From positions 22,061 to 86,060 of the forward strand of contig SKCR01023322.1 in assembly GCA_019454045.1 (NCBI GenBank): DNA of 64,000 nucleotides, written 5' to 3'. Origin of the DNA: Zanthoxylum bungeanum (taxonomy: Eukaryota > Streptophyta > Magnoliopsida > Sapindales > Rutaceae). The first letter of the stretch is position 1, and each line of letters begins with the position of its first letter. Position numbers and translations under genes: made by a program. This document shows, in pieces, positions 4,179 through 55,254 of this stretch. A model generated the notes under the pieces. It was not told the DNA's origin. It worked only from the letters and a program-made list of their open reading frames with translations, and ran no database searches.

Positions 4179-4975
4179 CTATTTAGCATCCAATGCCAAT
4201 TCTATTAGGTCCAATGGGCTTTAATTAATTCTTTAGGCATGGACCTTTGACTAATATGGATCAAGCCCATAATGCATTGGCTCATTTAGGAATCACCCTA
4301 TGCCATAAATTAATTTTGGCCCATTAGGCCCAATTAGATTATTAAAGGCCCAAAAGTCATATTTTGGACTTTTATGGAAATAGTTTAGGCCCAATTGGAT
4401 CCAACCCAATTGTCCACAACCAAACTTGGCCCCAACCAAGCCCATTAATCCAAATATAACCAAATTAGCACATTTAGTATTTTAGGGACTAATTTACATT
4501 AATACAATATTCCAATATTACATTAATCCATTTAAGTGTAATTAACATAACTAATTAATTAATCTAACATTTCCAAAATATTAATTAATCTAATTAATCA
4601 TGCTTATCTTTCCAATCATGTCCAACACAAATTGAAGCAAAATCAAGTCTCCAACAAACATGCTAACTCACGGCAATGACAAGAAATTAATATCCAATTT
4701 GATTCCAATCCAATTAAATCAACATTCAACATATATATCATGTCATTAACACATCCAAGTGTCAAAATTTTAAAAATCACCATGAGTTATACTAGGGTAA
4801 GTTAAGGCCATGATAGGGAAATTTGATCCAATCAATTTTTAACAATCCAACAATGCACAACACCAAGTTACCATCATCTAACATCAACCAACAACTCAAT
4901 TTTGAATTTTCATGCCCAAGCAAAAATTCCTAATTAAGTTTATGAACCCTAGTTTTCAAAATCATATTTAGCAAG

Positions 4976-4988
4976 GCTCTAGATACCA
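4976..4988 (-). other. Primer-binding site of element A
   Basis: On the minus strand this reads TGGTATCTAGAGC, one base after the LTR end. It resembles the usual copia primer-binding site complementary to initiator tRNA-Met (TGGTATCAGAGC) with a small change in the middle. The identical site occurs in B at 13264-13276. Confidence 0.8.
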
Positions 4989-4989
4989 T

Positions 4990-6902: not shown

Positions 6903-6913
6903 ATCTCCCACTT
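6903..6913 (-). other. Polypurine tract of element B
   Basis: The minus strand reads AAGTGGGAGAT directly before the LTR start TGTTGGACA. This purine run at the 3' LTR border is where plus-strand DNA synthesis is primed in LTR retrotransposons. Confidence 0.85.
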
Positions 6914-7488: not shown

Positions 7489-8375
7489 TTATTTAAGATA
7501 CTTAAGGATGTTCTTTACAGTAATCCAGTGACCATCACCTGGATCGGCCTGATAGCGACTGCACATGCTCAAAGCATATGAGACATCAGGTCGCGTACAT
7601 ATCATGGCGTACATGATCGATCCGACTGCTGAAGCATACGGGATCCAAATCATTGCATCTCTCTCATCTTGAGTTTTAGGACACATATCCTTCGATAGAG
7701 AGACGCCATGTGACACCGGAAGCAGCCCCCTCTTGGACTGATCCATGTTGAATCTCTTCAACACTTTGTCAATGTACGAGCTCTGGGAGAGTGCCAACAA
7801 CTTTCTAGATCTATCCCGGTAGATCCTTATTCCTAGAATAAAGGCTGCCTCTCCCAGGTCTTTCATGGAGAATTTTAATGAAAGCCAAGCTTTCACCGAT
7901 TGTAGCATGGGAATGTCATTTCCAAGAAGCAATACATCATCAATGTATAGGACAATTAATGTCAGTGTGCTCCCATTAACCTTCTTATATACACAAGAAT
8001 CATCTTCGTTTTGAATGAAACCATATTCTTTTATGATCTCATCAAAACATTGGTTCCAAGAACGCGATGCTTGCTTTAATCCATAAATGGATCGGTTTAA
8101 CTTGCAAACCTTGTTTGCATGTTTTGGCAGGACAAAACCGTCAGGCTGTTGCATATAAACATCTTCCAAAAGGTTTCCGATAAGGAAATCGGTTTTGACA
8201 TCCATCTGCCATATTTCATAATCGAAATATGCAGCAATAACAAGCATTATCCGAATGGATTTAATCATGGCAACGGGTGAAAAGGTTTCACCGTAATCGA
8301 CACCATGTCGTTGACGATACCCTTTAGCTACAAGCCTAGCTTTGTACGTTTGTATGTTGCCTACCATGTCTCTCT
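7489..8375 (-). pseudogene. Element B reverse transcriptase
   Basis: Copia-type reverse transcriptase, open for 292 codons from 8367 to 7489. Visible blocks in order are YKARLVAKGYRQ, the METFSPVA-like GETFSPVA, WQMDVKT, YGLKQA and the catalytic YIDDVLLLGN. The usual AFLNG block reads DFLIG. Upstream, the RT start lies in another frame, with the frameshift near 8370-8375, so the domain is separated from integrase. It is followed by the damaged RNase H. This is the best preserved pol segment of the A/B family in the window, but it is not part of a complete polyprotein. Confidence 0.92.
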
Positions 8376-8837
8376 TCTTTTAAAGATCCATTTACAACCA
8401 ATAGGCTTAATGCCTTCTGGTACATCAACCAGTGTCCAAACTTGGTTGGTATACATGGAATCCATTTCGAACTTCATGGCTTCTTGCCATAAAGTGGAGT
8501 CGATACCTTGTATCGCTTCCTCATACGTAGGTGGTTCATCTTCCTCAATAAGATTAATGTCTACATGAGGTGAGATCAGAAACCCATACCTCTTAAGTTG
8601 TTTTCTGACTCTCTCCGACTTACGCGGTTCTTGTGTATCAGAAGATTATGGAACAGTCTCATCTCTGATGGACTGTTCGTGTTCCGTGAGGGGGTCGGTG
8701 CCAGGAACAGTATCACTCCAATTTTCATCGAGTTCTACTTTCCTCCCACTTACCACTGCATTCATGAATTCCTTTTCTAGGAAAATCGCATGAAGAGCAA
8801 CAAATATTTTGTTCTCTTGTGGGTTGTAGAAATAATA
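8376..8837 (-). pseudogene. Element B integrase-RT linker and RT N-terminus
   Basis: This stretch joins integrase to reverse transcriptase. Conceptual translation in one minus frame gives the start of RT with a LVDVPEGIKPIGCKWIFK block just right of 8376. The preceding linker is interrupted by stop codons around 8645 and 8838. It aligns with A at about 103-565. Confidence 0.75.
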
Positions 8838-9790
8838 TCATTTCGTTTCCTTAGGATAACCTACAAATAGGCACTTATCCGATTTGGGTTCTAGTTTGGT
8901 ACTATCCAAACGTTTAACATATGCCCAGCATCCCCAAATCTTCAGGAATAAGAAACCTGGTTTCTTTCCTGTCCATATCTCATATGGAGTCTGTTCAACA
9001 GACTTTGACGGAACCTTATTCAAAATAAGTATTGCATTATTTAATGCGTATCCCCAGAAGGAAATCGGTAGCTCTGTGCGACTCATCATTGACCTTACCA
9101 TGTCCAACAAAGTTCGGTTTCTCCGTTCGGACACACCGTTCAATTGAGGTGTTCCGGGAGGAGTCCACTGTGAAAGAATACCATATTCTTTCAAGTAATC
9201 TTGAAACTCATTGCTTAAGTATTCTCCACCACGGTCCGACCGCAATGTTTTAATACTTTTGCCAGTCTGTTTTTCTACTTCGTGTCGAAACTCTTTGAAT
9301 TTCTCAAAAGTTTCCGACTTGTGTTTCATAAGATACACATAACCATAACGCGATGCATCATCCGTAAAGGTTACGAAGTATTCATATCCACCTCTAGCCT
9401 GGCTAGACATGGGCCCGCATACGTCACTATGAACGAGGGCTAACAGCTCGGTGGCACGTACATCTTTACCACTAAAAGGTGTTTTAGGCATTTTGCCTAA
9501 CAAACAAGATTCGCAGACATCATATGAATTAGGATCAAATCCGTCCAAGTATCCATTCTTCGAAAGTGTGGATATACGAGTTTTGTTAATGTGTCCCAGA
9601 CGACAATGCCACAAATAAGTCTCATATGTTTTACTCAATTTGAGCTTTTTATTTGTCATGTTATATGTTTGAGATTCGTTTATATTCAAAATATAAAGAC
9701 CATTATTCACATTTGCTGTACATATCTCAATATCATCTTTATAAACAAAACACCCAGTGTTCCTGAATACAAAGGTATACCCGCATCAGG
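8838..9790 (-). pseudogene. Element B integrase
   Basis: Copia integrase, open for 290 codons (9710 to 8838). The HHCC zinc-binding domain is visible (LWHCRLGH, then CESC), followed by the catalytic core with [23 protein letters not shown] and GTPQLNGVSERRNR, which together supply the D,D,E residues. The ORF stops at 8838 before joining the linker to RT, and it is separated from protease upstream by stops near 9790-9965. The domain is well kept, but the polyprotein is not continuous. Confidence 0.93.
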
Positions 9791-9968
9791 TTAAACTAGA
9801 TACAGAGATAATATTCCTAGTCAAACTAGGTACAAAATAACAGTCGCCTAATGTAAGTACATGCCCTGAGGGCAGATTCAAAACATAGGTGCCAACGGCC
9901 AAAACAGCGACTCTCGTCCCATTTCTGACTCGTATGTCGATCTCCCCTGAAGCCAGTCTCCTGCTAAT

Positions 9969-10920
9969 CTACAGATCATGCACATCAGTACATATGTGAG
10001 TACCACATCCAGTATCAAAAATCCAATTTTTAAAACTAGTAGTGGACATGTTTATTTCAATAACAAACATACCTGAAGCCGGAGCCTTGCCCGCCTTCGC
10101 TTCCTTCAAGTCCGCCTTGAACTTACGGCAGTCACGCTTCCAGTGACCCCGTTTGCCACAGTGTAGGCAGACGTCTTGGGATTTGTCATTTGTCTTCCCA
10201 GAAGACTGTGATGATTGAGCCTTGCCCTTCTTCTTCTTCTTCTTCACACCCCCAGAAGTCTTCGGCCAAGCCTTGGCCTTCTTGGATGTCGAAGTAAGAT
10301 GCGCCTCGCGCTTCTTGCCTTTCAGAAGCTCTGGCTCTGCCTCTTTCAGCATAGCCATTAACTCTCCAAGAGTTTTCTCTTGGTTCATCATATTATAGTT
10401 CATGATGAACCCGCCCCAACAATCAGGCATAGACTATAAGATCAAATCTATGGAAGTCTCGGCCTCGAAGGTAATGCCAGCTGATCTTAGTGTTAGCAAT
10501 GCATATGTATGTAAATCATTTGACATAGTGTTTGAGCATATGTACCCTGTATTACTACGAGAGAGAAAGGCTTTTTCGTAAATCATACTTCTGAGATCTA
10601 AGATTAGATCTATGAAGATCCTTCAACTTCAACATCATCGCATAAGGATCCAATCCCTTGTTCTGACGACGAAACTGAGGAGTCATTACAGCAAGCATAA
10701 TGGATTGAGCAGTAAAGTTATCATCACGATGAGCCTTCCAAAGCTCATGCTCTACTGGTCGCTAAAGTCCGGGCTCAGGCCCGAGAGGTCTCTCTATTAC
10801 ATAGAGCAACTTCTCAGCTCCCAGGACTATCATGAGGTTCATTTCCCAGTCTAGAAAATTTACGCCGTTAAAGACATTCTCACTCATGATTATGTCCCTA
10901 ACGCTTATCTTTCCAGCCAT
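9969..10920 (-). pseudogene. Element B gag and protease
   Basis: gag starts at an ATG at 10918-10920, and the N-terminal domain is open to about 10760, where a stop breaks it. The C-terminal part is open from 10430 to 9969. It contains a lysine-rich stretch, one CCHC zinc knuckle (CLHCGKRGHWKRDC) and then the protease active-site block FDTGCGTHIC. Between 10440 and 10600 the sequence no longer matches copy A and gag is unreadable. The zinc knuckle and Asp-Thr-Gly motif are intact. Confidence 0.9.
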
Positions 10921-11254
10921 TTTGATTGCTATAGTCCAACTATCCAATCAAATATTTCGGGTACACTCAAATGCAATGGTTACTATAGTCCAACTATATA
11001 ACCAACTACAAATGGAGTAGTGTTGAGTACAGTCTAACTGTTCAAAGAAAACAATAAATGTATAATATTAGTCCAACTAATATATATAATAACGAGAAAT
11101 AATAATAATAGAGCGCGCATATTAGCGAGTATTAAACGAAATTACAAATTTAATACTAGCCTCCCACTAATTTTCGGCGAGCCTCTAACCCTCCGTTGAG
11201 TACTCGGGAAACCTAGTTTCCTAATGGGCTAGGATCCCGTTAAATAATACACAA

Positions 11255-11612
11255 CCTTGACTTTGGCCAACAAGCTGTATAAAATTTAACTAGGTAGATC
11301 TCTAAGATCAATTGGATCTCATCCAATTCCTAGATCCGGTAGGTGGACATCCAAGTCCTAAAAATATATCTAATATATTTCCTAACCTGTTTCCTCTGAA
11401 TCAACTAAGCCTTGGCTTTGGCTCAACAAGCTTAATGATTCCAGTTAAGCGCGACCCATTGACAGTGGGAAAGCTTCGTAATCCACGTCGATGAACAAGA
11501 GTGACCTTGACTTTGGCCAACAAGTCACAACTGCCCAAGACATGCGATATTAACAAAGCTTTCATGGTTCAAACACATCCACGATAGACAATGATCTTGA
11601 CTTTGGCCAACA
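11255..11612 (-). repeat. Four spaced leader repeats in element B
   Basis: CTTGACTTTGGCCAACAA at 11255-11274, 11505-11524 and 11594-11612, with a variant at 11410-11430. The order and spacing are the same as in A. They lie in the leader between gag and primer-binding site; the rest of 10921-13263 is AT-rich and non-coding. Confidence 0.85.
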
Positions 11613-12281
11613 AATCAAAGCCAATCTTGGATCTTGAGAGAGAACCACTCAATGGAAGGAAACGCTTAATATTAAATGCGAGGGTGTTTTCGTAAATTGG
11701 CAACCAATTTATTATCTTTGATTAGGTCTCATCATACACCCTTAAACATGCATTCTAAAAGCACAATAAGGCGCGATAAATATAATAATGATATGCGGAT
11801 GGATATTCATATACATTTTGTTCCTAAAAAAATCTCTTTTTTCTTTTCCTCTCTCCCGCTAGCACTTTACATTCTTCTATTTACCCAATTACATAACACT
11901 ATAAGAAACCTCATTTACATTGAGGGGAATTGGTGAGAAGAGAAATACAATGAGAATAAGAGGTGATGTGCTGGACACGCAGGTCCAATTTCAAATAAAT
12001 ACAATATTTACAACAATTTCTAAAATTACCCCCACCCATCTAATATCCATCCGATATACATTATTCAAACAAATACATCCAAGCATTCACACATAACATG
12101 TTGTCAATCAATATAATCTAATTAATTAATTCTTCAAATAATGACCATCCAATGTTCATACAACGATTTGATTTGCGCGAGTCCAACTCGTTTAAAAATA
12201 AATACTCAAAGTAAGTATTCTTGAATTATATCGAACTACAATATTAATCCAATTTAAATTGTATTCAATACTAATTCAAAT

Positions 12282-12464
12282 TTAATTCCAAATTAAACAA
12301 TTACACTTATTCTAATATAATAATGTCTTTTTAGACTTGGATTCCAAATCCAATCCAAATGGTCTCAAAGGCTTTAATTCCAAATTAAACAATTACACTT
12401 ATTCTTTTATAATAATGCCTTTTTAGCCTTGGATTCCAAATCCAATCCAAATGGTCTCAAAGGC
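12282..12464 (-). repeat. 90-bp tandem duplication in the B leader
   Basis: Copies at 12282-12373 and 12374-12464, orthologous to the pair at 3998-4178 in A. Confidence 0.85.
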
Positions 12465-13263
12465 CCATTTAGCATCCAATGCCAATTCTATTAGGTCCAA
12501 TGGGCTTTAATTAATTCTTTAGGCATGGACTTGGCCATTATGGATCAAGCCCATAATGCATTGGCCCATTTAGGAATCACCATATGCCATAAATTAATTT
12601 TGGCCCATTAGGCCCAATTAGATTATTAAAGGCCCAAAAGTCATATTTTGGACTTTTATGGAAATAGTTTAGGCCCAATTGGATCCAACCCAATTGTCCA
12701 CAACCAAACTTGGCCCAACCAAGCCCATTAATCCAAATATAACCAAATTAGCCCATTTAGTATTTTAGGGACTAATTTACATTAATACAATATTCCAAAT
12801 ATTACATTAATCCATTTTAAGTGTAATTAACATAACTAATTAATTAATCTAACATTTCCAAAATATTAATTAATCTAATTAATCATGCTTATCATTCCAA
12901 TTCATGTCCAACACAAATTGAAGCAAAATCAAGTCTCCAACAACATGCTAACTCACGGCAATGACAAGAAATTAATATCCAATTTGATTCCAATCCAATT
13001 AAATCAACATTCAACATATATATCATGCCATTAACACATCCAAGTGTCAAAATTTAAAAAATCACCATGAGTTATACTAGGGTAAGTTTCGGCCATGATA
13101 GGAAAATTAGGGAAATTTGATCCAATCAATTTTTAACAATGCACAACTCCAAGTTATCATCATCTAACATCAACCAACAACTCAATTTTGAATTTTCATG
13201 CTCCAAGCAAAAATTCCTAATTAAAGTTTATGAACCCTAGTTTTCAAAATCATATTTAGCAAG

Positions 13264-13276
13264 GCTCTAGATACCA
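13264..13276 (-). other. Primer-binding site of element B
   Basis: Minus-strand TGGTATCTAGAGC next to the inner end of the 5' LTR, identical to the site in A and close to the tRNA-iMet complement used by most plant copia elements. Confidence 0.8.
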
Positions 13277-13277
13277 T

Positions 13278-15199
13278 TGTTAATCTCTAAGACATGCCAC
13301 AAGATCCTAAACATGATTTTATGTGTGAAAATTACAAGAAAAATGGCGGAATCATTTACTATGTAATTTGGAGAAATTTCAATTTTTCTTTTGGATGAAG
13401 CTCCAAGCATGTTGTTTTGTTCATTGGGTGAGTTTCCCTATCACCTTATTTGACTCCTCCAAGTGCTAGCTTAGTTGAAATTTTGAAGCAAAATTTCATT
13501 CCAAAATGAGAGAGAGAAAGAGAAGAATAGAGTGAATAGTGTGTTGTTTCCAAAAACTTGGTAGTTGTGTGTTAAAGACAATTAATAAATAAAGCCAACT
13601 ACTTCCATCAATATTAGACATTTGATGTAAGTCATGTGGTCCCACCACACTTTAAATTCAAATTTTGAGTTGGCTTATACAACACACAACTTTACCTGGG
13701 TCCACCAAAGTCAAAGATATTTTGTTTTCCCAAAACACAAAAAGACAAACGCTAAGTCACGGGCAATTTTATCGGGTTCGTTTAATTCCAATTAAACGAA
13801 TTTTCCGTCGCGTCATAATTAAATCCAATTTAATTAAATAATTATGCCTCGTAAAAATATTACGATAGTCGCTTTCAAATTAATTCTAAATTAATTCGTT
13901 TGTCCGAATTAAAATCCAATTTTAATTTCGTATTGAAATCTGATTTCAATTAATATATCCAATATATTATTTTTTCCACAAATAAATAGATTAAATAGAA
14001 AAATCTAATTTAACTATTAAATTTATTTTATCGATTAATTCTAAATTAATCGCGTTCTCTCTTCTATACGAATTTAATCCCAGATTAATTCTTGCCTCAA
14101 TTAATCCCAGATTAATTTTCTATCTCATAAATAATCCCAGATTAATTTATCTGAGTCAAATGTCATTGGTGAATCTTTGGGAAGCGACCCAAGAGATTTC
14201 TGGATATGTTGGCAGTAAATACGGTTATCAGAATATCCAAACACATGCGTACCACGTACCATGTTCTCACCGATTTACAAGACATGGTTGGCTTTTAGAA
14301 AAGCACCGTGCCTACCCAATTCTCCAGAAATATTCACCGAGGATTATCATTTGTATCAGACATAGTAATAGTAATATTATGTAATACGTAATACGATCCA
14401 GTATCATATGTCACATGCTAGGCCTAGGGCTGGCTCTGTGTCTGCCCCGTACGAAGCATATATTGGATTCCGAGTAACTAATCTCTATAATCGGGAAGTC
14501 ATGACCTAGTCATACTATCCCGATAGCTGCAGCTTTTAAGAGTACTAGTTCTGTACCCTGTGTGACCATCATCTCTATATGACTAAAGTGATACTCTCAT
14601 ATTGACATCACATCCAATACACTATGATTCTCAGTAAACCCAATACAGGTGTACACGGAACCTGTTAAAGTTCCAGACGATCAATACTAAAGTAAACTGA
14701 TTGTCTCAAGTAATAGCGACGTAAATCTCAGGTTAAAGATCACATACATCTACCCTGATTCGGATTCCCATAGACACATAGTCATACTACCAATGGGATT
14801 CCGAGTGGGTCTATCTAGAGCAAACTTTTCCCAGTCTAACGGCTAACAGAACCTCTTATTACACTTGCATAAGTATCCAATACCTAAATATATGAGAACT
14901 ATGTTGTTAAGCTTTCATAACGCGCACAAGTGTAATACTAGTCTATTTTGCATTATCAATGGCCAGTCTCAATAATACTTCGACTATGGATATTTAATGA
15001 TTAAACCGTTCGTGGATTAATATTGTCTCATATCTTATTAATCTGATTTAACCATATGGACTTTTATCATTAATATATATCCAAGTAATCTAATTACAAT
15101 AATGATAAAATAGAATTTTCTTTTGTCACATAGTTAATTTGTACAAAAACACAATGTTATTTACAAATAGTGATGCTATGGGGTCATAATTGTCCAACA
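13278..15199 (-). repeat. 5' LTR of element B (1922 bp)
   Basis: Full-length match to 4990-6902. Its outer end (…TGTCCAACA at 15199) abuts Ty3/gypsy coding sequence that begins at 15200, so this is a true insertion border. The five bases after it, GTCCA, would be the target-site duplication; the partner lies outside the window. Confidence 0.93.
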
Positions 15200-15204
15200 G
15201 TCCA

Positions 15205-35554: not shown

Positions 35555-36768
35555 TCATTTTCCTACATAGACATCATTTTTGGTCAATACAAACTTGTTA
35601 GAAACAAATACAAGCTTAAAGTCATTCTTGCTAAGGAGAGAGCCCGAGACCAAGTTCTTCTGAATATCAGGAACATGCAAAATATTCTTCAATGTAAGCT
35701 CATTTACGGATGTCATCTTCAGAACCACTGTGCCTTGTCCAACCACTCTAGAGGTAGACGAGTTTCCCATTGTCAGATGATCACCACCATCGACCTTCTG
35801 ATACGAGGAAAATATCTTGCTATCAGCACATATATGACGAGTAACCCAGTGTCTACCCACCATTCTCCCGGATTCCCAACCAAGTTGGCTTCAGTTACCA
35901 CTGCTAAAAGGTTCATCTCTGAGATCTCATCAGTCAGCTACTCATTTTCAGTGACATGGGCCTCATTTTTCTTTTTCTTGCCTTTGTCCTGAGACTTCTT
36001 GTTTCTGCAGTCCTTTGCCATATGACCGTTTTTCCACAGTTGTAGCACTTCCCCTTGAACTTCTTGTTAGCTTGGGAAGAATCAGCTTCACTGTTCTTTA
36101 TCTTTTTGCTACCTTTTACACCTTCGACGATATTGGTCTTAGACTCCATAGTCTTGTAGCTGGCCTTCTCGGACTTCTTGTTGTCCTATTTGATCCTCAA
36201 TCGAACTTCAAGGTCTTCAAGGCTCATCTGCTTCTTTTTGCGTTTCAGATAGCTCCTAAAGTCCTTCCATGATGGAGGTAACTTTTCAATGATGGTGGCA
36301 ACTTGAAAAGTCTCACAGATTTTCATCCCTTCATCCTATATTTCATAAATGATCAATTATAGTTAACCCAACTAAGACATTTCCATTTTTGAATCTACCA
36401 TTTTGTAGTCCAGGAACCTACCCACGACAAATTTCTTTTGCCCGACATCCTCGATTTTGTACTTCTTCTCGAGAGATTCCCAGAGAATCTTCGCATAAAT
36501 CATGCCTTAGTACACATTGTATAGGGTATTATCAAGTCCTCCCAAAGTTAGTTCTTGCACAAGAAGTCGTCTGACGACCATGTCTATTCTCGCAGTTGCT
36601 TGGCTGTTTTCGTTTCTCCCTCCACAGGACTAGGAGGATCTTTGAGGTACTTAGCCAACTGGAGAGTTGTCAGGCAATATTTTGCTCTGCCACTGTTTAA
36701 AGTTTGCTCCACCAAACTTTTTCAGCTTTTCTCCATGAGCGACCGGTACCGAGATGTTTCCGCTAGCT
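35555..36768 (-). pseudogene. Element E gag and protease remnant, split by F
   Basis: Protease-proximal ORF 35863-35555, whose active-site block has lost its normal Asp-Thr-Gly frame (it reads WVTRHIC). The gag zinc knuckle is in 36149-35934 (CYNCGKT, damaged) and the gag core runs to 36768. The start codon lies on the other side of F, at 46318-46320, in frame with this end. F therefore inserted within the first three codons of gag. Confidence 0.87.
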
Positions 36769-38660
36769 TGATGAGCAGAAAATATATCAATATTTACCGC
36801 TTCTTTTACCTAATAGTTGGTTTAGTTTCTCGGATTTGATGAACGTTTTGATGTGTTTTTATGTGTTTTGTAGATAAATAAAGTATCGAGACTTAATGAA
36901 ATCAACTCGGGGCTAAAACGATGAAATCCGGAGCAAAAAATGGCGAAAACGGAAATTTACCATACGCGTCATGAAGTGTATTCCTAAATTCCAGTTTTGC
37001 GCAAGTTTGGTATTTTGGCCATAATGTTTTCATCCGATATCCGATTTAGCTGATTCAAGTTCCAGATTAAGGAAGACACGATGATCTACAACTTTAAATT
37101 TTTAAATATTTTCGAATTCGAAAATTTGCAAGACCGAAATTGATGAATAATCCAGTGTATTTTGTGTAATTACTATAGTCGTTTTCAAAATATAAAATAA
37201 AAATAATAAAATAATAATTTTTAAACTTCCACCAAAAATGGAGGATTTGGTTCCATGTTTGGTGTCATGTTTGATGTCATGTTTGGTGCCAGGTTTGATG
37301 GAGCAATTGGTGGAGAAATTGGTGGAAACCTTTAGATTTTCCTATAAATACCAAGCAAAACTTTGTAAATTTTCCATGCTTTATTTGGAGGAATTTCTCC
37401 ATGAAAACCTAAAGGAAAGTGTCTTATATATTTATTTAAGTTTCCTTATATTTTTTTTATTTAATTAATAACATTTTGTGTGTTTTCATTTACAGCATGA
37501 GTAGGTAATCTCATTCTGCTGGGGTGAAAAGATGAGACTTTTAATATAATGAATTAGATAATCTCCCTTATTTTAATTAGAATTTGGATTAATTAGTTAC
37601 CGCCTATATTGATGGTTTAGGTGACAACCTTATTTACCGCTTATATGGTCGGTTTTTCATTTCAGACATAGTTTCCACCTATATGGTCGGTTTAGGTAAT
37701 AAATTTGTTACCGCCTATATGGTCGGTTGGATTTAATTAAGACAAATGAAATTATTACCTTTATGGTCTGGTTAATTAATCGGTAAATATTGAGAATAAG
37801 GGAGATTTCTAATTTTGAAATATTAAAAGTGGATCCTCTAAACCCCAACATTTTCTTTTATTATACTTTTACATTTTTAATTTCCAGCATTTACTTTATG
37901 TCTTTTATTTTATTTAAGCTTTTATTAGCCTTAGATATGTGTCGTAACTAAGTCTGTTATCTGGGGTTGTGATGAATTCCAATATCACCGGGTTATAAGG
38001 GGTTATTTTATAGTTTGGGTAATATAAAGGTTTACTTATTAAGTCTTAAACTTAATGCTTCTTGTTAACTGGCCATTAATAAGATTGATCTAGTAAACTT
38101 AAAATAAACTTGACAAAGTAATTTTAGGTTTCAGCCTTAGACTTTATAGCCCACGATCTACCTTGAGGATAGATAACCCTTTAATAGATTTCCTTACATG
38201 ATAGACATATACCTGTCGGGCGTGGGTAACCACAATTGGAACTTAATCTTAATAAATTCAGGTAACTTTGTTGACATAGAAATTTGATTAATTGGGTTAC
38301 AGTGGGTATTTGCATCCGACCATCGACAGAGGCTTTTGCAGAGTTTCGTGTTCCAACTTAGTAAACCAATATATTACACAAACATAAAATAACCACTTAA
38401 TCTTTTAAAAGATATACGAAAGATTCACAACCATAGATAGTTTCCTAATATTGAATTTTCCTAAACCTACTTTCGCGTCATTTTATTTACTTGTTTTTAA
38501 ATTTAAAATCACCATTCAATCAATCAATCCATTAGATATTAATAAACATTTGACTTCATAAATTAATAGCTTAGGTATTAAGTCCTCATGGGATCGATAC
38601 TTTTTATTATACTTAAACGATACGTGCGCTTGCGTTATACACGTGTGACAACGCCGGTCA
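36769..38660 (+). repeat. 5' LTR of element F (1892 bp)
   Basis: Starts TGATGAGCAGAAAATATATC and ends ACAACGCCGGTCA. Around 37599-37760 it contains about five spaced copies of a CCTATATGGTCGGTT-like word. The same array is in the 3' LTR and, more diverged, in solo LTR G. Confidence 0.92.
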
Positions 38661-38666
38661 AGTTTT

Positions 38667-38684
38667 TGGCGCCATTATCGGGGA
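38667..38684 (+). other. Primer-binding site of element F
   Basis: TGGCGCCATTATCGGGGA, six bases after the LTR end, is a variant of the TGGCGCCGTTGCCGGGGA site typical of Athila/Tat-type plant gypsy elements. Confidence 0.85.
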
Positions 38685-38857
38685 CTTATTTATCTTTCAC
38701 TATTAGTTTTGAGGTTGGATACGTTATTTGTATCTAATTTCTTTTTACTTATTGTTTTTGTTTTCTTGTGTTTCAGGTTCTTAAACAATACATGTGACGA
38801 ACCAGAAGCTTTGAACTCCGACCGCTTGACCCAGAAATTGAAAGAACCATCAGACAG

Positions 38858-39748
38858 TTGAGAATGGAAAGACGTGAAGGCCAAGAAGTAATTTTCAATA
38901 TGGAACATGAACCTTTAGAAGTTGCACCACCAATTCCCATTCGAGACAGAACTATTCCGGTGGTTGACGGATTCATTTCCTATATTGTACTTCCTCCCTT
39001 ACCAGTAAATACGTGTGACATCAAAACATGCATTCAGATGATACAGGAGTCAGTTCAGTTTGGGGGGAATGCAACTGAAGATCCTAATGCCCACATCAGT
39101 AACTTCCTGGAAGTTTGCGTCACTTTCAATTACAACCAAGCAGCTGAAGAAGCAATGAGACTGCTTGTTTTTCCATACTCTTTGAAAGACATAGCAAAAG
39201 CTTGGCTACATTCATTACCAGCAGGTTCCATTATAACTTGGAACACTCTAGCCACCAAATTCCTTGCAAAGTACTTTCCACCAGCCATAACAGCAAAGTT
39301 GAGGAATGACATCACATCCTTTGTGCAACAAGATTCAGAATCCCTCTGTGAAGCTTGGGAAAGATTCAATGATTTGCTCCGGAAATGTCATCACCATGAG
39401 ATTGCAAAGTGGTTACAAGTCCAAACCTTCTACAATGGACTTTCTGGAATAATGAGAACCACAATTGATGCTGCTGCTGGAGGAGCTTTAATGGCAAAAG
39501 GAGAAGATCAAGCCTGGGACCTAATTGAAGAAATGGCCAACAACAACTCCTTGTGGCCAACAGAAAGGAGCTTGATCCAACGAATTGCTGGAATTTATGA
39601 AATTGGAGCCAACACCGCAGTTAATGCCAAGATGGATCAGATATGCAAATTCTTGGAAACTTTCGGCATGCAAGGTAATATTGGATCCAAAAGTTCACCA
39701 TATGGAGGAGCACCAGAACCAAACCAACATAAAGAAACAGTTAATTAG
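38858..39748 (+). CDS. Element F gag, N-terminal part (296 aa)
   Basis: Structural gag protein of an Athila-like retrotransposon, which forms the virus-like particle. The ORF is open from 38858, although upstream in-frame sequence (from about 38794, TRSFELRPLDPE) looks like lost N-terminus behind an ATG-TGA, so the natural start was probably disrupted. Visible blocks are AHISNFLEVC, the retrotransposon-gag core with RLLVFPYSLKDIAKAWLHSLP, TWNTLATKFLAKYFPP and EAWERFNDLLRKCPHH-like sequence, and a C-terminal MDQICKFLETF. The frame is lost at 39749 and continues one frame over. F is the only element in the window with a gag this well kept. Confidence 0.88.
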   Translation: MRMERREGQEVIFNMEHEPLEVAPPIPIRDRTIPVVDGFISYIVLPPLPVNTCDIKTCIQMIQESVQFGGNATEDPNAHISNFLEVCVTFNYNQAAEEAMRLLVFPYSLKDIAKAWLHSLPAGSIITWNTLATKFLAKYFPPAITAKLRNDITSFVQQDSESLCEAWERFNDLLRKCHHHEIAKWLQVQTFYNGLSGIMRTTIDAAAGGALMAKGEDQAWDLIEEMANNNSLWPTERSLIQRIAGIYEIGANTAVNAKMDQICKFLETFGMQGNIGSKSSPYGGAPEPNQHKETVN

Positions 39749-40266
39749 TCAACAATTTCAACAGACAGTGGAACAATCCATATTCCAACACCTACAACCC
39801 AGGGTGGAGGAATCATCCCAACTTCGTATGGAGCAACAATTCAGGGTAAATAAACAACCCACTACCCGGATTCCAATAGAAAAACAAAGGCCAGGAGCAT
39901 GCAAATGAAACAGAAATAGCAGAAGTGCTGACCCATTTGAAAAAGTTAGAAGCAAAATACGACTCTCAAGCAGCTATGTATGATGCTTTGTTTCAATCCC
40001 ATGCAACATTAATTCAAAGTCAATATGCTTCTATTAAAGCACTGGAGAATCAAATTGGACAACTAACCAATGCTCAGAGTTACAGACCGTCAGGTAACCT
40101 TCTTAGCAACACAGAACCAAATCCAATGAACATGGGGAATGAGCAATGTCATGACATCATGTTAAAAAGTGGTATTGAAATCAATAAAAATGTTGGAGTC
40201 AAGGCAACTGCTGAGGAAGTTCCAAAAGAAAACAGCAAAGCAGTTCCACAGATGGAGGAAAAATAA
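39749..40266 (+). pseudogene. Element F gag C-terminal part
   Basis: After the stop at 39748, gag-like sequence continues in two other frames: to 39908 (Gln-rich) and 39925-40266. The latter has a predicted coiled-coil stretch (LKKLEAKYDSQ, then IKALENQIGQLTNA) usual for the C-terminal part of Athila gag. It is separated from the protease ORF by a stop at 40264-40266. Confidence 0.75.
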
Positions 40267-41186
40267 GCAAAGGAAAAAGATCAAATCATTTTACCTCCAC
40301 ATTTACCACAACGTCTCCAGAAGAATAAACTAGACAAGAAGTATTCTCAGTTTCTAGAGATCTTCAAAAAGCTGCATATCAACATTCCATTTGCAGAAGC
40401 TTTGGAACAAAGGCCCAGCTATGTCAAGTTCATGAAAGACATTCTTTCACGAAAACGGAGATTGGGAGATTATGAGACAGTAGCATTATCAGAAGAATGC
40501 AGCGCCATCATTCAAAGGAAAATTCCCCCAATGTTAAAAGATCCTGGCAGTTTCATTGTTCCTTGCACCATAGGAGAACATGACTTCGATAAGGCTTTGT
40601 GTGATTTAGGTGCAAGTGTTAACTTGATGCCTTTTTCTATTTACGGGAAACTGCAGATTGGAGAAACAATGTCCACCTCAGTCTCTCTACAACTTGCTGA
40701 TAGAACGCTCGTATTTCCGAGAGGTGTAGTTAAAGATGTGCTGGTCAAAGTTGATAAATTATTTTCCCAGCAGATTTTATTGTCCTTGATATGGAGGAAG
40801 ACGAAGACGTGTCGATCATCCTCGGGAGACCATTATTGGCTACAGGTCGAACCATTATTGATGTACAAAAAGGAGAACTAACCATGAGCGTACAGGACCA
40901 AGTAGTAACATTCAATATTTTCAAAGCCATGAATTTCCCAAATGAAGAGAAGGAAGAATGTTTCAGAATTGATGTGATAAATAGTACCGTCCAGACCTAC
41001 GATGCGATACAAAGTTCTACTGACAAATTTAAAGCATGTCAATTACATGTGGAGCCTGAAGATAAAGCGTATTACGCACTGAAGAAGCCAAGTCTTGCCC
41101 TACAAGCAACAGAAGAGAAAAAGTTTCACCAGCTCAACGAATTGGAGAAATTTCACATTCAGCCTTTTGAGAATGCCAAATTGTAA
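40267..41186 (+). pseudogene. Element F protease and protease-RT spacer
   Basis: 40402-40881 carries the ALEQRPSYVKFMKDI block, IPPMLKDPGSF, CTIGEHDF and the aspartic-protease active site CDLGASVNLMP. A frameshift near 40775 moves the rest to 40791-41186, which has the ILGRPLLATGRTIIDV block. The active-site Asp is present (DLGA in place of DTGS, normal for this lineage). After 41186 the RT that should follow is missing. Confidence 0.88.
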
Positions 41187-41474
41187 AAAGAAAAGGTCAG
41201 GAAAAGACATGATGAGAAGTTAGTGCGCATACAACTGGAACCATGGTAGAAGGTGATGTTAAAAAAATCAAGGGTGAAACTCTTCCCATGGAAGCCAAAA
41301 TCAAAGTGGTCATGTCCATTCTTAATCACCAAGGTTTTACCAGATAGAGTCGTTGAGTTACATGATCCTGACTCCAACAAAACATTCAAGGTTAAAAATA
41401 AGCGTGTCAAGCATTACTGGAGAGAATCAATTGATCGACAAAAAGAAAGTGTCATACTTTCATATCCAGCCTAA
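41187..41474 (+). pseudogene. Element F integrase C-terminal stub
   Basis: About 95 codons of the extreme pol C-terminus (LFPWKPKSKWSCPFLITKVL, VELHDPDS, FKVKNKRVKHY), interrupted by stops at about 41185 and 41248. It is joined directly to the protease end, so a deletion removed RT, RNase H, the chief part of integrase and their linkers. Confidence 0.85.
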
Positions 41475-41500
41475 CGTTCGGGCAGTCATGTCTAGCTGAC

Positions 41501-41535
41501 GACATTAAACTTAGCGCTAGCTGGGAGGCAACCCA
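41501..41535 (+). promoter_or_regulatory. Conserved post-pol motif of Athila-like elements
   Basis: GACATTAAAC, TTAGCGCTAG and CTGGGAGGCAACCCA follow in order. I recall near-identical AGCGCT…TGGGAGGCAACCCA blocks just after pol in Athila-like elements of other plants. AGCGCT and TGGG/CCCA can each base-pair, so a small RNA hairpin is possible. Function unknown. Confidence 0.6.
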
Positions 41536-41805
41536 TGCAAATTTGTGTATATATTGTGATCTGGTGTATTTTATTTTTGTGTGTTTAATTTGTGTAGGAA
41601 AAGTCATATTTCATGATGGAAGAAGTTCTCGCAAATCTTCACAAGAAATTTCTTATCTCCCTTAAAATTCTCTGATGAAAGTCTACAAAGCTCGCTTGGA
41701 ACAGATGAGACTACTGATGATCAAGTGTATTTCTACCGACATTCGTTGGATTATTGAAGCACGAGTCCGATTAGCAGGTGAGTCTTCTGACCCTTTATTT
41801 CACAT

Positions 41806-42099
41806 ATGTCTGGTTTAGGAAGAAGCACATTTGCTAAAAAGAGAAGAGCTAAAAGAATGGGTGTTTGCTACAAATGTGCTCGTATGTTTTGTAATACTCG
41901 TTGTCGTTCTTTAGGAATAGTGTCTGATAACCGTGAAGATAAGATTAATTTCATTAGGGATGGTTTGAGTAAGAAGTCTTTGGATGGCATATCTAAAACT
42001 CTTGAGACGCATCCTAGTGGATGTGTGTATCATGAAATTCACATGTTATATACAAAATTCCGAAAAAAGAAAGACAACAGTATAGTCTCGGGAATCTGA
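41806..42099 (+). CDS. 97-aa basic Cys-containing accessory ORF of unknown function
   Basis: An open plus-strand ORF between pol and the LOG-like ORF. The N-terminus is strongly basic (FAKKRRAKRMG), followed by a cysteine cluster CYKCARMFCNTRC that could bind a metal ion, then a helix-like middle (FIRDGLSKKSLDGISKTLE) and a second Cys/His group (HPSGCVYHEIH). No family is recognised. It is not part of gag or pol. The clean frame, start codon and basic-plus-cysteine composition argue that it is a real accessory gene of the element, perhaps nucleic-acid binding, but that is inference. A chance ORF of this length is possible. Confidence 0.5.
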   Translation: MSGLGRSTFAKKRRAKRMGVCYKCARMFCNTRCRSLGIVSDNREDKINFIRDGLSKKSLDGISKTLETHPSGCVYHEIHMLYTKFRKKKDNSIVSGI

Positions 42100-42413
42100 C
42101 TCAAAAAGACCCTATTTGCCAATTTATAAGAAAATTGGATGGGAAGATTGTCTCTGACGCATAGACGTTAATCAAGCTGTTACTTTCCTGTAAATATTAT
42201 ATATCTTTGTCTTTTCCTAATAATTGTGATTTGTTTTGTTATTTTCTTTTATTTTCTCCGACAGGATCCAGACCTTTTTTACTATCACGATTTATTTTAC
42301 TGTTTAACTAATAATTTTCATTTGGCAGGTACTAGTGCTATTATTTTTACTCACCCTTTTTATGTATTATAAATTCAACTCATCATTGCACTTTTGAAGA
42401 CATCCAGATAAAA

Positions 42414-43067
42414 ATGGAAGCTACTTCAAGAAGACGAGTTGAAAACATTTGTGTGTTTTGCGGTACTAGTGTTGGTGTTAAACCAGAATATGTAATGGCA
42501 GCACATGAATTGGGTCGAGTCATTACTGTAGGGAATATGCACTTAGTATATGGCGGTGGCAATCTTGGACTAATGAGGATCGTTTCAAAGGCTATACAGG
42601 AATGAGTCAGTCAAGTTTTGGGAATCATCCCAAAATCTTTGGCGGAGGCGAATCTTATTGGACCATCAAACGGAGAGGAACTGATCATGCCAGGTATGTC
42701 TGAACGACTGGTAGAAATGATTAATCGTGCTGATGCTTTTATTGCTTTGCCAGGTGGCTTGGGCACAATAGAGGAAATTTTTACAGTACTATCTTGGGCG
42801 AACTTGAACATACACCAGAAACCGCTTGGACTATACAATGTTGATGGATTTTATGATTTTCTTTGTGTGTTTCTTGATGATGCCCGGAGAAATGGATTCG
42901 TGTCAAAACCTGTAAAAGAACTCCTCTTTACTGCCAGAACTGCCCTAGATTTAATTGACCAAATATTAGCCTTTGAACCACAGATTGACCCTATCCTTTC
43001 CAAAATAAACCGGTCCGAGAATGATTGTGGTAAGAGGCGTCGGATAAATCTAGATTTTAACCTGTAA
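42414..43067 (+). pseudogene. LONELY GUY (LOG)-family ORF captured by element F, one in-frame stop
   Basis: LOG enzymes release free-base cytokinin from cytokinin riboside 5'-monophosphate. The frame runs 217 codons, about the usual LOG length of ~215. Residues 12-18 CVFCGTS, the glycine loop VYGGGNLGLM (45-54), LGIIPKSL (69-76), Arg98 in the MSERLVEM segment, and the signature PGGLGTIEE (113-121) are present, then KPLGLYNVDGFYDFL. Plant LOG genes have several introns and this copy has none, which points to capture through RNA. Codon 64 is TGA. Aligned LOGs have Gly there, so one GGA to TGA change would explain it. The usual RK of the MxxRKxxM motif reads RL. It lies inside F, downstream of gag/pol and in the same direction as the LTR promoter. 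Activity is doubtful unless the stop is recent or read through. Confidence 0.88.
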
Positions 43068-43139
43068 CTTTGCATTTAGATGTAGAATTTCAGCTAACCA
43101 GATACGATTTTCTAAACTCTTCTTCTACTGTTTAAGACA

Positions 43140-43176
43140 TTGGGGACAATGTCTCATTTAAGTTTGGGGGAGGGGA
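43140..43176 (+). promoter_or_regulatory. Purine-rich internal motif after the LOG ORF
   Basis: TTGGGGACAATGTCTCATTT followed by AAGTTTGGGGGAGGGG. It is a second polypurine-tract-like sequence, about 1.25 kb before the real one. Similar GGGGACAATG…TTTGGGGG blocks are known to me from Athila-like elements. It may be an internal plus-strand primer. Confidence 0.5.
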
Positions 43177-43624
43177 ATAGTTAATTTGTATCTTGTTTTT
43201 ATTGTTTTATTTTTAGTATAAAATTTTTGAAAAAATCAAAAAAAAATAAAATTTTTACAAAAAATCAAAAAAAAATATTTTGTGTTTTTGTATTTTTAAC
43301 AAGACTAATCAAGTGAAATTGGTGTGAGATAGCTGTGTAAGGAATTTCCACTCCTGAGACGTATCTCAACCTATTTTGGAACAAGTTAATTTTTGTTTAT
43401 TTCCTTTTGAATTATTTAAATTGTGAATTCTCCATAATATTGACTAAAATGGATCTTCATATGCTCAGTTGACAGGTATTATCAACTTGCATGGTAATAT
43501 ACGGACATGAGAAGTAATTGACGAGTTTGTAATATTCAGTGCTCTAGTTTATTAGAGGAAGCATCTAAAAAAGCGATGGGATAAAAAAAGAAAAAAAGAA
43601 AAAAAATGTGTATAAAAAAAACGT

Positions 43625-43860
43625 TTGAGATCCGAGTTATTAAGTTTGTAAGAGTGTCTTAACACCTAGTGCCCTAAGACCAACTGGTTTGGGAGTCATT
43701 GACCCAAAGCTCGTTACATGGATCGAAGATGTTGACAAAAAAATATATATATCTGAAGTCTGAGTAATTAAGTCTGTATGGGTGTCTTAAACACTAGTGC
43801 CCTAAAGCCAACTGGTTTGGGAGTCATTGGCCCAAAGCTCGCTACATAGATGGAAGATAT
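43625..43860 (+). repeat. Two tandem ~120-bp repeats in element F
   Basis: Copies at about 43625-43738 and 43752-43860 share GAGTTATTAAGT-like starts, CACTAGTGCCCTAA, CCAACTGGTTTGGGAGTCAT and CCCAAAGCTCGTTACAT. The flanks (43180-44380) are AT- and A-rich and non-coding; the ORFs at 43827-44090 and 44053-44316 are not supported. Confidence 0.8.
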
Positions 43861-44388
43861 TGTATATAAATAAAAAAATAATAATAAAAGAAAAAAATCA
43901 GAAAAATCAGAAAAAAAAATATTCTATTTCTAAAAAAGGTGTGAATTCTGATAAAACTTTAGGACAAAAATATTACTCTCTTTTCAACTACACTTGTGAC
44001 TATTGTGGGCAAAATGAGTTGATTAATATTTTGTTGGCTGTGTATATGGAGAATGGTAAAAATAATCGGAGAAGTTTACTTATTCGGTAATTTAGAAAGA
44101 AAGAAAACAACTATTAACTTGGATAAGAGTTTCACATGTTTAGTCACTAACTTCTTTATTCTCCTTTCTCTTGTCTTTTTGCTTTTGTGTGAATTAATTT
44201 TACTATCTTTTTACTTTTATCAAACGTTTATGGGTATCGATTTTGTAAGCCCTCACGAGACTACAACTCGTCCACTAGGGATACCTAGGGGTTTAAAGGC
44301 TTATTGCATATGCTAAATGCAAATGTGATCCCTACGAAAGTGGCTTAGTTTAATTTTAATTATTTTTTGTATTTTATTTTATTGTTTT

Positions 44389-44423
44389 GCTCGAGGACTA
44401 GCAAAATGTTAGGTTTGGGGGTG
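44389..44423 (+). other. Polypurine tract region of element F
   Basis: GCTCGAGGACTAGCAAAATG then TTAGGTTTGGGGGTG directly before the 3' LTR at 44424. The GAGGAC…AGCAAA…GTTTGGGGG arrangement is typical of Athila-like elements. Confidence 0.8.
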
Positions 44424-46313
44424 TGATGAGCGGAAAATATATCAATATTTACCACCCCTTTTACCTAATATTTTGTTTAGTTTCTCGGGTTTGATGAACG
44501 TTTTGATGTGTTTTTATGTGTTTTGTAGATAAATAAAGTATCGGGACTTAATTAAATCAACTCGGGGCTAAAACGATGAAATCCGGAGCAAAAAATTGTG
44601 AAAACGGAATTTTACCATAGGCGTCACGAAGTGCAGTCCAAAATTCCAATTTTACGCAAGTTTGGTATTTGGCCATAACGTTTTCATCTGATATCTGATT
44701 GAGCTGATTCAAGTTTCAGATTAAAGAAGACACAAAGATCTACAACTTTGAAGTTTCAAATATTTTCGAATTCTGAAGTTTACAAGACCGAAATTGATGA
44801 ATAATCCAGTGTATTTTGTGTAATTACTATAGATATTTTCAAAATATAAAATAAAAATTGTCAAACTTCTACCAAACATGCTTGCATATTTGGTTGAGGA
44901 TTTGGTGCCATGTTTGGTGCCATGTTTGATGGAGCAATTGGTGGAGAATTTGTGGAAGCCTTTAGATTTTCCTATAAATATCAAGCTAAACTTTGTAAAA
45001 TTTTCATGCTTCTTTGGAGGAATTTCTCCATGAAAACCTAAAGGAAAGTGTCTTGTATATTTATTTAAGTTTTCTTGTATTTTCTTTTTATTTAATTAAT
45101 AAAATTTTGTGTGTTTTCATTTACAGCATGAGCATGTAATCTCATTCTGCTGGGGTGAAAATGTGAGACTTTTAATATAATGAATTAGATTAATCTCCCT
45201 TATTTTAATTAAAATTTGGATTAATTAGTTACCGCCTATATGGCCGGTTTAGGTGACAACCTTATTTACCGTCTATATGGTCGGTTTTTCATTTCAGACA
45301 TAGTTTCGCCTATATGGTCGGTTTAGGTAATAACCTTGTTACCGCCTATATGGTCGGTTGGATTTAATTGAGACAAATGAAATTACCGCCTTTATGGTCT
45401 GGTTAATTAATCGGTAAACATTGAGAATAAGAGAGATTTCTTATTTTGAAATATTTAAAGTGGATCCTCTAACCCCCAGCATTTTCTTTTATTGTACTTT
45501 TACATTTTTAATTTCAAGCATTTACTTTATTTAATTTCCAGTATTTACTTTATGTCTTTTATTTTATTTAAGCTTTTATTAGCCTTAGATATGTGTCGTA
45601 ACTAAGTCCGTTATCTGGGGTTGTGATGAATTCCAATATCACCGAGTTATAAGGGGTTATTTTATAGTTTGGGTAATATAAAGGTTTACTTATTAAGTCT
45701 TAAACTTAATGCTTCTTGTTAACTGGCCATTAATAAGATTGATCTGGTAAACTTAAAAAAACTTGACAAAGAAATTTTAGGTTTCAACCTTAGACTTAAT
45801 AGCCCACGATCTTCCTTGAGGATAGATAACCCTTTAATAGATTTCCTTACATGATAGACATATACCTGTCGGGCGGGGGTAAACACAATTGAAACTTAAT
45901 CTTAATGAATTTAGATAACTTGGTTGACATAGACATATGATTAATTGGGTTACATTGGGTATTTGCATCCGACCATCGACATAGGCTTTTGCAGAATTTC
46001 GTGTTCCATGTTAGTAAACTAATATATTACACAAACATTAAATAACCACTTCATCTTTTAAAGGATATTGGAAAGATTCACAACCCTAGATAGTTTCCTA
46101 ATATTGAATTTTCCTAAACCTACTTTCGCGTCATTTTATTTACTAGTTTTTAAATTTAAAATCATCATCCAATCAATCAATCCATTAGATACTCGTAAAT
46201 ATTTGACTTCATAAATTAATAGCTTATGTATTAAGTCCCCGTGGGATCGATACTTTTTATACTACTTGAATGATACGTGCGCTTGCGTTATACGCGTGTG
46301 ACAACACCGGTTA
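44424..46313 (+). repeat. 3' LTR of element F (1890 bp)
   Basis: Starts TGATGAGCGGAAAATATATC and ends ACAACACCGGTTA, so the terminal CA is changed to TA. It differs from the 5' LTR by scattered substitutions and small indels, which makes F clearly older than C. Confidence 0.92.
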
Positions 46314-46318
46314 TAGCC

Positions 46319-50500: not shown

Positions 50501-50519
50501 TGACCATCATGTATACTTC

Positions 50520-51185
50520 AGACAACATAGAAAACTCTCATGTACCTTTTTCAGGTCTAGTCGACTGAAGATTATCTTGGACCTTCATCTGGTGCAGTCG
50601 ATGGGAACGCCCCCTCGTCAGGTTAGGTTGCAGACCTGGACATTTATATAGTCCAGACGACATAGAAAACTCGTCTGGACCTTTTTCAAGTCTAATCGAC
50701 TGGAGGTTGTCATGGACCTTCATCTAATCAAGTCGACGAGAACATCCCCCACAGACCCTCATTGAGTCAGGTTGAAGACCTGGACCTTCATCTGGTACAG
50801 ATAACGTAGAAGACTCCATTTGACCTTCTTCAAGTCTAGTCGAATAAAGATTATCCTAGATCTTCATCTGGTCTAGTCGAAGAGAACATTCCCCACGGAC
50901 TCTCGTCAGGTTAAATTGAAGACTTGGACCTTCATCTGGTACAGACAACATAGAAGACTCCCCTGGACCTTCTTCAGGTCTAATCGACTGGAGATTGTCT
51001 TAGACCTTCATCTGGTTCAATCGTATGAGCATTCCTCACAGATCCTCGTTGGGTCAGGTTGAAGACTTGGACTTTCATCAGGACCAGAGGACAATGAATA
51101 CTCCCCTAGACCTTCTTCAGGTCTGGTCGACTAGAGATTATCCTGGAACTTCATCTGGTCTAGTCAACAGGACAATCTCTAAAAC
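50520..51185. repeat. Five ~143-bp tandem repeats
   Basis: The landmark GACAACATAGAAGACTC (variants) recurs at 50521, 50656, 50800, 50944 and 51087, that is, at 135, 144, 144 and 143 bases. Each unit also has CTGGACCTTCATCTGGT and CAGGTCTAGTCGACTGGAGA-like words. Lies inside an LTR-like region that continues to 52199. Confidence 0.9.
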
Positions 51186-53378: not shown

Positions 53379-55254
53379 TGACCGGCGTGATCACACACGT
53401 ATAATGCAAGCGCACGTATCGCTCAAGTAGTATAAAATGTATCGATCCCACGAGGACTTAATACCTAAGCTATTAATTTGTAAAGCCAAATATTTACGAG
53501 TATCTAATAGATTGGTTGTTTGATTAGATGGTGGCTTTAAACTAAAACAAGTAAATAAAATAGCGCGAAAGTGAATTAAAGGTAAAATCAATATTATAAA
53601 ACTATCTAGAGTTGTGAATTCTTCCAATATCTTTTAAAGATGAAGTGATTATCTCATGTTTGTGCATTATATTGGTTTATTAACCTGGAACACGAATTTA
53701 TGCAAAAGCCTCTTCTGATGGTCAGATGAAAATACCCAGTATAACCCAATTAATCATATTCCTTTTGTCAACCAAGTTATCTGAATTCATTAAGATTAAG
53801 TTCCAATTATGGCTACCCCCGCCCGACAGGTATATTCCTATCCTGTAAGGAAATCTATTAAGGGTTATCTATCTTTAAAGGAGATCGTGGGCTATTGAGT
53901 CTAAGGCTGAAACCTAAAATCTATTTTCCAAGTTCATTTTAAGTTTACCAAATTAATCTTATTAATGGCCAGTTAACAAGAAGTATTAAGTTTAAGGCTC
54001 AATAAATAAACATTTACATTACCCAAACTGTAAAATAATCTCTTATAAACTGGTGATATTGGAATTCATCACAACCCCAGATAACTGGTTTAGTTACAAC
54101 ACATATCTAGGACTAGTAAAAGCTTAAATAAAGTAAATAACATAAAGTAAAAGCTGGAAATTAAAAAGTAAATAAAACAATAAAGAAAATATTGGGGTTA
54201 GATGATCCACTTTTATTACTTCTATTTTAGATATCTCCCTTATTATAATATATTAACTTTGCGTGATAATTACCAACCGATCATAAAAGCGGTATTCTGA
54301 TTAAGTCAAATTTATAATTCATTCTAACCGACCATAAATGTGGTATCCAATTTAGTCAGGTTAAAATCAATTTAATTAAGTCCAACCGACCATAAAGACG
54401 GTATCTCATTAAGTCAGGTTTTAAATAATTTATATATTATAATTAAGGGAGATTAATCTAAATACTAGTAATAAAAGCTTGACCTTTAACCCCAGCAGAG
54501 AGTAGTTACCTCCTCATGCTGAACAGTAAAAATAAACACTGAAAAGTAAAGAAAAGAAAGAACTATTAAATAAAATTAAATACAGAAAGCTGTAAATAAA
54601 CAAACAAGATACAATCTTTTTAGTATTCTTAAGGAATCCCCCAGAAGAATGTATGATTTTGCAAATGAAATTGTCCTGAATTTATAGGCACCAATGGGTC
54701 TCGCGCATCGCGACGCGCTGAAGATTTACGCCACGTGGCGCGAGCTTCACGGAGATAGTGACACGTGGCGTCGGCAGCGTCGGCATATGAATTATTGGAT
54801 CGGCATCACGACGCCGAATGCTCTGCGCGTCACGATGCTGATGTCAGCAATGACGTGTTCTGTCGACAGCATGGGATGATGACACGTGTTCGGCGTATAT
54901 TAGCACGATTGCTGTGATTGTGATACGTGGCAGACGCATGTTAGCAAGTGCGCATGTTAGCAAGTTTCTCTGATTTTGACACATGTCCGGCGCACGTTAG
55001 CGGCGTACGATAGCAGGCGGCGCATTTTAGCAACGGGGATTATAAAAAATGGCACAATTTAGCAGGAAATTTATATTTTTGCCATTTTTATCCGTTTTTC
55101 GATATTTTAGCCCCGAATTGCTTATAGAGAGTGCTGTTATTTTATTTATCTACAAAATAACACAAAACACATCAAAATATTAACAAAAATCAAGAAACTA
55201 TACAAAATATTAAGTCAAATGAGTGGGAAATAGTGATCTATTTACCACTCATCA
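53379..55254 (-). mobile_element. Solo LTR G of the F (Athila-like) family (1876 bp)
   Basis: The minus strand starts TGATGAGTGGTAAATAG and ends CACGCCGGTCA, like the LTRs of F. The flanks are a perfect 5-bp duplication CTAGC (53374-53378 and 55255-55259), with no internal sequence, so it is a clean solo LTR inserted in H. The array of CCGACCATAAA words near 54280-54400 is the counterpart of F's repeats. The segment 54690-55030 is GC-rich and has no counterpart in F's LTR. Confidence 0.95.
54690..55030. promoter_or_regulatory. GC-rich block with three CACGTG boxes inside solo LTR G
   Basis: CACGTG occurs at 54732-54737, 54762-54767 and 54883-54888, with further ACGTG cores near 54853 and 54925, and repeated GTTAGCAAGT / CGCATGTTAGCA words. 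CACGTG is the G-box bound by plant bZIP and bHLH factors. The ORF at 54694-54879 is not supported. Confidence 0.55.

Follow-up and report, generated by a model that had tools for sequence, protein, structure and literature searches.

A decayed LTR retrotransposon of Zanthoxylum bungeanum with two 3′ cargo genes, a LOG-family pseudogene and a carlavirus-NABP-like cysteine-rich gene

Introduction

Is the LONELY GUY (LOG) family sequence at 42414-43067 of a 64,000-nucleotide stretch of Zanthoxylum bungeanum DNA (contig SKCR01023322.1; the whole stretch is hereafter the window) host DNA, or is it cargo of the long terminal repeat (LTR) retrotransposon around it, and if cargo, why was it kept? A first reading of the letters alone (the sequence-only reading) had proposed that an Athila-like element captured a full-length, intronless LOG gene. 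Here we describe a decayed, pol-deleted LTR retrotransposon at 36769-46313 whose 3′ cargo consists of LOG and, just upstream of it in the same direction, a second gene, CRP, which was absent from the LOG entry of that reading. Judged from intact relatives, a family of mobile elements is likely to have kept the CRP-LOG pair for long. At about even confidence, we prefer the explanation that the element came from a lineage keeping the pair for host-cell permissiveness to transposition.

A broken LOG gene between paired LTRs

42414..43067, plus strand: LOG-family pseudogene (Pfam, tblastn, tree)
42603..42605, plus strand: in-frame TGA
43029..43064, plus strand: basic C-terminal tail with a degenerate LxLxL (GKRRRINLDFNL)
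42327..42328, plus strand: AG of a putative pyrimidine-rich acceptor-like site before LOG (sequence)

The identity, place and strand assigned to LOG by the sequence-only reading held. PF03641 (Lysine_decarbox) matched 42606-43064, after the TGA, with an E-value of 4.7e-32 (111.4 bits, cut-off 27), and the open 217-amino-acid relative P0046 was 86% identical over 217 residues (tblastn, E 7e-124). The proposed absence of introns was likewise borne out, as the sequence aligns without intron gaps; it lies on the gag strand, downstream of an integrase C-terminal remnant and ahead of the 3′ LTR. The motif PGGxGTxxE is present as PGGLGTIEE, and the catalytic Arg and Glu of the LOG family (PMC5379747) are both kept. 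The claim of a full-length open frame fell: translation in a single frame gives a 217-residue LOG protein broken by the TGA at 42603-42605, the longest ATG-started frame being 126 amino acids. An intact cargo gene in this copy is therefore ruled out, and because of the TGA we file the sequence as a LOG-family pseudogene.

The surrounding element comprises the following features (L001 is a related contig described below):

36764..36768, no strand: 5′ flank TAGCT, likely target-site duplication (4/5 bases equal to the 3′ flank TAGCC)
36769..38660, plus strand: 5′ LTR, TG...CA (LTR self-comparison)
38667..38684, plus strand: primer-binding-site-like sequence (sequence inspection)
38798..39745, plus strand: gag remnant, Retrotrans_gag (PF03732, 5e-22)
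40267..41183, plus strand: presumed protease-region remnant in two frames (motif alone)
41031..41471, plus strand: integrase C-terminal remnant (tblastx against the L001 integrase frame, 41031-41456)
43137..43170, plus strand: tract common to the window and L001, there downstream of CRP with LOG absent (blastn, 85% over 34 bases)
44411..44423, plus strand: polypurine-like tract preceding the 3′ LTR
44424..46313, plus strand: 3′ LTR, TG...TA (LTR self-comparison)
46314..46318, no strand: 3′ flank TAGCC, likely target-site duplication

That the LTRs pair as one element, as had been assumed, is supported by their 90.35% identity (blastn) and by the flanks, which agree at four of five bases (at least four matches are expected by chance in about 1.6% of cases). 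Paired LTRs, primer site, polypurine tract and a duplication at 4/5 bases together identify an LTR retrotransposon. The LTRs differ by 134 substitutions over 1864 aligned sites (Kimura two-parameter distance 0.076), corresponding to 2.9-5.4 million years at two commonly used rates. We take the primer-site-like sequence to resemble the 3′ end of tRNA-Asp, and the stretch at 40267-41183, which has no Pfam match, to be the protease region on the strength of its motif. No reverse transcriptase, RNase H or integrase core was seen among the element's frames of at least 70 amino acids; with LOG, CRP and pol all broken, the element is pol-deleted and dead. The Athila lineage is defined by reverse-transcriptase phylogeny; the putative primer site and the 3′ extra open reading frames (ORFs) make the element likely Athila-like, a label to be read alongside passages of PMC6317226 in which a tRNA-Asp-type primer site and a sense 3′ extra ORF are also features of other non-chromovirus lineages.

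A second cargo gene resembling a carlavirus protein

41616..42119, plus strand: CRP, a carlavirus-NABP-like cysteine-rich gene broken across frames, core ORF 41806-42099 (Pfam, tblastn)
41596..41597, plus strand: AG of a putative pyrimidine-rich acceptor-like site before CRP (sequence)

CRP is spread over three frames in the window (tblastn pieces). Its core ORF matched both PF05515 (Viral_NABP; 2.3e-6, 28.2 against a cut-off of 23) and PF01623 (Carla_C4; 2.4e-6, 27.9 against 20.9). At E <= 1e-3 it has 45 relatives, 52-87% identical and mostly on short metagenome contigs, the named ones coming from Parasponia andersonii, Acer yangbiense and one Clostridioides difficile record. The fragment so labelled (P0019) probably reflects plant DNA contaminating that assembly.

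When bacterial and archaeal genomes were scanned with the CRP alignment, one locus was returned, L001, a 3330-base contig (DAIEQH010000041.1) filed under a Candidatus Nomurabacteria metagenome-assembled genome (MAG). Judged by its content it is probably a plant-like Ty3/gypsy contig contaminating that MAG. It carries, in order, an integrase ORF (rve, 2.4e-16), an intact 182-amino-acid CRP and the tract matching window 43137-43170, and LOG queries found no match in it. With an intact CRP behind an integrase and LOG unmatched, CRP is therefore part of an element with pol; LOG was either added in the window's branch or lost in that of L001. Between the two CRPs, dN was 0.286 and dS 1.25 (nonsynonymous and synonymous divergence) over 97 codons, a stretch that takes in the end of the window ORF, where the frame has shifted, and 0.196 and 1.27 over the first 75 codons; this is a single pair with dS near saturation.

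Could the match to carlaviruses be convergence, with CRP a zinc-knuckle-like protein of the element's own that shares no ancestry with the viral protein? Its cysteines are spaced C-X2-C-X4-C-X3-C, both in the window and in the intact CRPs inspected; we take this spacing to be near the zinc knuckle and count it for convergence. The finger quoted in passages on one carlavirus is instead C-X2-C-X12-C-X4-C after a basic cluster (PMC8839810), so the carlavirus spacing was not found in CRP. In addition, the L001 protein scores 19.8 against the Carla_C4 cut-off of 20.9, and the structure model of CRP is poor (mean predicted local distance difference test score 56) and unusable for a fold search. Against convergence, the PF05515 match of the L001 protein (34.2, cut-off 23) reaches about 88 residues beyond the finger, each of the two Pfam families is matched by 32 of 35 aligned CRP members, and none of nine shuffled CRP sequences had any Pfam match. 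On balance we consider convergence unlikely, and because the cysteine spacing differs we call CRP NABP-like and do not file it as a family member.

A multi-species clade of element-type LOGs

The LOG protein query gave 3824 matches, of which the best 120 were examined, in a protein database that holds open frames only and so favours intact copies. Within these 120, full-length LOG frames of 212-221 amino acids are many, at roughly 50-86% identity. Reevesia pubescens names 15 of the clusters (88 member sequences by the tool's count), and Xanthoceras, Populus and Diplodiscus are also present. One-off capture is unlikely because of these many relatives. For further comparison we kept the 94 of 120 that are 200-260 amino acids long (the 94 relatives), thinned at 88% identity to 33 element-type tree rows. 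To these were added the window, 25 host LOGs (113 of 120 passed the length filter and were thinned to 61, from which the 25 were taken), two Arabidopsis structures and two bacterial LOGs. In the tree, the element-type rows group with the window in one clade (100/98), and the host rows make up a separate one (99/92). Together with the LTR pair and the position and strand of LOG, this multi-species clade upholds the proposal that LOG is LTR-element cargo.

The clade has a signature of its own. The catalytic Glu is found in 93/94 relatives and the catalytic Arg in 84/94, the pocket Lys next to the catalytic residues is gone from most members, and a basic C-terminal tail with LxLxL is typical of most. 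LxLxL, which defines an EAR-type repressor tail, occurs in 74/94 relatives versus 0/120 sampled host LOGs.

Might this clade be a divergent host LOG subfamily, one member of which the element merely picked up or landed on? Plant-gene annotations among the best 120 matches, such as Populus LOGL10, would fit such an origin, as would the limited host sampling, in which AtLOG8 is the only representative of types outside LOG1/3. We regard it as very improbable, given that the window LOG lies deep inside paired LTRs, that Reevesia pubescens contributes so many clusters, and that LOG-type domains have been published in Citrus and Populus LTR elements (passages of PMC9289625). Furthermore, the Acer model P0037 joins CRP (69% to P0012) with LOG parts (77% and 95% to P0078), supporting element residence of LOG in Acer. 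Residence in Xanthoceras is weakly supported by P0053, where a pol-like stretch lies between two LOG parts.

Recent capture of LOG from a bacterium is also disfavoured: bacterial plasmid LOGs are below 60% identical in 170/170 records (36-45% in the five listed), and in the tree the element clade stands beside plant LOGs with the two bacterial sequences outside. Scans of viral contigs for more element DNA gave nothing, or 18 weak SLOG-like loci that were left unused.

Retention or passage

The preferred explanation, that the lineage kept CRP and LOG for a purpose, has to be set against one in which both are passengers, old captures copied with the element, of no benefit to it and decaying alike. 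Several observations count against retention. The window LOG, like CRP, is broken, and its tail (NLDFNL) fails the strict LxLxL; a pol-deleted element is movable in trans only; L001 lacks LOG; and the catalytic Arg is missing from 10 of the 94 relatives. The strict LxLxL is missed by 11 of the 33 element-type tree rows, and the trait takes six changes on the tree. At the DNA level, LOG is seen between LTRs in the window only, element residence being assumed for most relatives, and the pol-like stretch in P0053 reaches an E-value of only 0.006. What speaks against mere passage is the number of full-length LOG frames with an almost invariant active-site Glu (subject to the database's preference for intact copies), the loss of Lys and the tail, both derived and common to the relatives, and a CRP dN/dS well below 1 in the one pair compared. 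We judge passage somewhat unlikely, though to be taken seriously.

Other repeats in the window

A solo LTR of a related LTR family lies at 53379-55254 on the minus strand, with a perfect 5-base duplication, CTAGC, at both ends. Positions 1-6905 and 8273-15202 hold a 6.9-kb segment twice in tandem order (95% identity) with minus-strand copia-like frames, and 50512-51177 contains overlapping direct repeats of about 76-78% identity.

Discussion

Under the explanation we prefer, CRP would have been first in the lineage, with LOG joining later, downstream of it, through RNA, and selection would have retained both genes in relatives, the window copy being dead. The LTR transcript would be the source of both products, with the acceptor-like sites at 41597 (CRP) and 42328 (LOG) perhaps used for splicing. 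By analogy with a carlavirus cysteine-rich protein, CRP may be a nucleic-acid-binding protein that dampens silencing or changes transcription. The LOG protein would remain able to cleave a nucleotide, which may be a cytokinin precursor, though its base pocket would be changed and its preference may be altered. In most relatives the tail might direct the protein into the nucleus, and LxLxL could bring in co-repressors there. More tentatively, and with considerable doubt, the pair may be a two-gene host-manipulation cassette, in which a regulator gene in common with an RNA-virus family accompanies a LOG that first acquired a nuclear LxLxL-type repressor tail and later lost its pocket lysine, so that a hormone-activating enzyme turned into a nuclear effector of the mobile element.

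How much of this is new? The abstract of Steinbauerova et al. 2011 reportedly mentions a pair of Athila-like elements whose extra ORFs resemble LOGL4. The sequence-only reading knew of no LOG capture by such elements, yet passages of PMC9289625, where that work is cited, describe a YgdH (LOG-type) domain in Gypsy-type elements of Citrus and Populus. Those elements share with ours a LOG-family domain within a Gypsy-type LTR element; the window copy differs in being broken and pol-deleted, and the passages in question mention no virus-type neighbour gene, pocket Lys loss, C-terminal tail or clade analysis. LOG as LTR-element cargo is therefore already known, and the CRP-LOG pair, the LOG clade and its signature are new as far as our literature search reaches. 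No report of plant LTR elements with a carlavirus-type gene was found in the literature searched, with most subscription journals outside it.

Comparison with other known systems places the two genes further. Like carlavirus cysteine-rich NABPs (e.g. chrysanthemum virus B p12), CRP matches PF05515 and PF01623 and has a basic cluster directly before the cysteines; unlike them, it sits in an LTR element, has a long N-terminal region and another cysteine spacing, and is known from sequence. Plant type-I LOGs share with the element type the fold, PGGxGTxxE and the catalytic Arg and Glu (AtLOG3 is 48% and AtLOG8 41% identical to the intact relative P0046 by structural alignment), whereas the element type has no intron, a replaced pocket Lys and, in most relatives, the extra tail. 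Another Gypsy-type lineage that has kept a host-like enzyme is found in orchids, in elements bearing an RNA demethylase domain; there the enzyme is a different one and its in-vitro activity has been demonstrated, in contrast to the sequence-level knowledge of LOG here (passages of PMC9289625). Finally, sense extra ORFs between pol and the 3′ LTR, such as the Athila env-like ORFs, have the same position and orientation (passages of PMC7264820 and PMC6317226); in our element there are instead two genes, each of a recognisable family.

Extra ORFs in plant LTR elements have been described generally (passages of PMC7264820, PMC6317226, PMC11963269 and PMC11728184), and three of these sources (PMC7264820, PMC6317226, PMC11728184) present them as mostly devoid of known domains, with roles yet to be settled. 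Two cargo genes of recognisable families with testable activities make the role of such ORFs directly testable. In carlaviruses, the family that CRP matches has been linked to the suppression of silencing and to transcription in the host; the LOG family is linked to cytokinin activation. If both work, the retrotransposon would bring along tools of its own for weakening silencing and altering the state of the host cell. If the viral relationship of CRP is true, a positive-strand RNA virus family and an LTR element would also have a gene in common.
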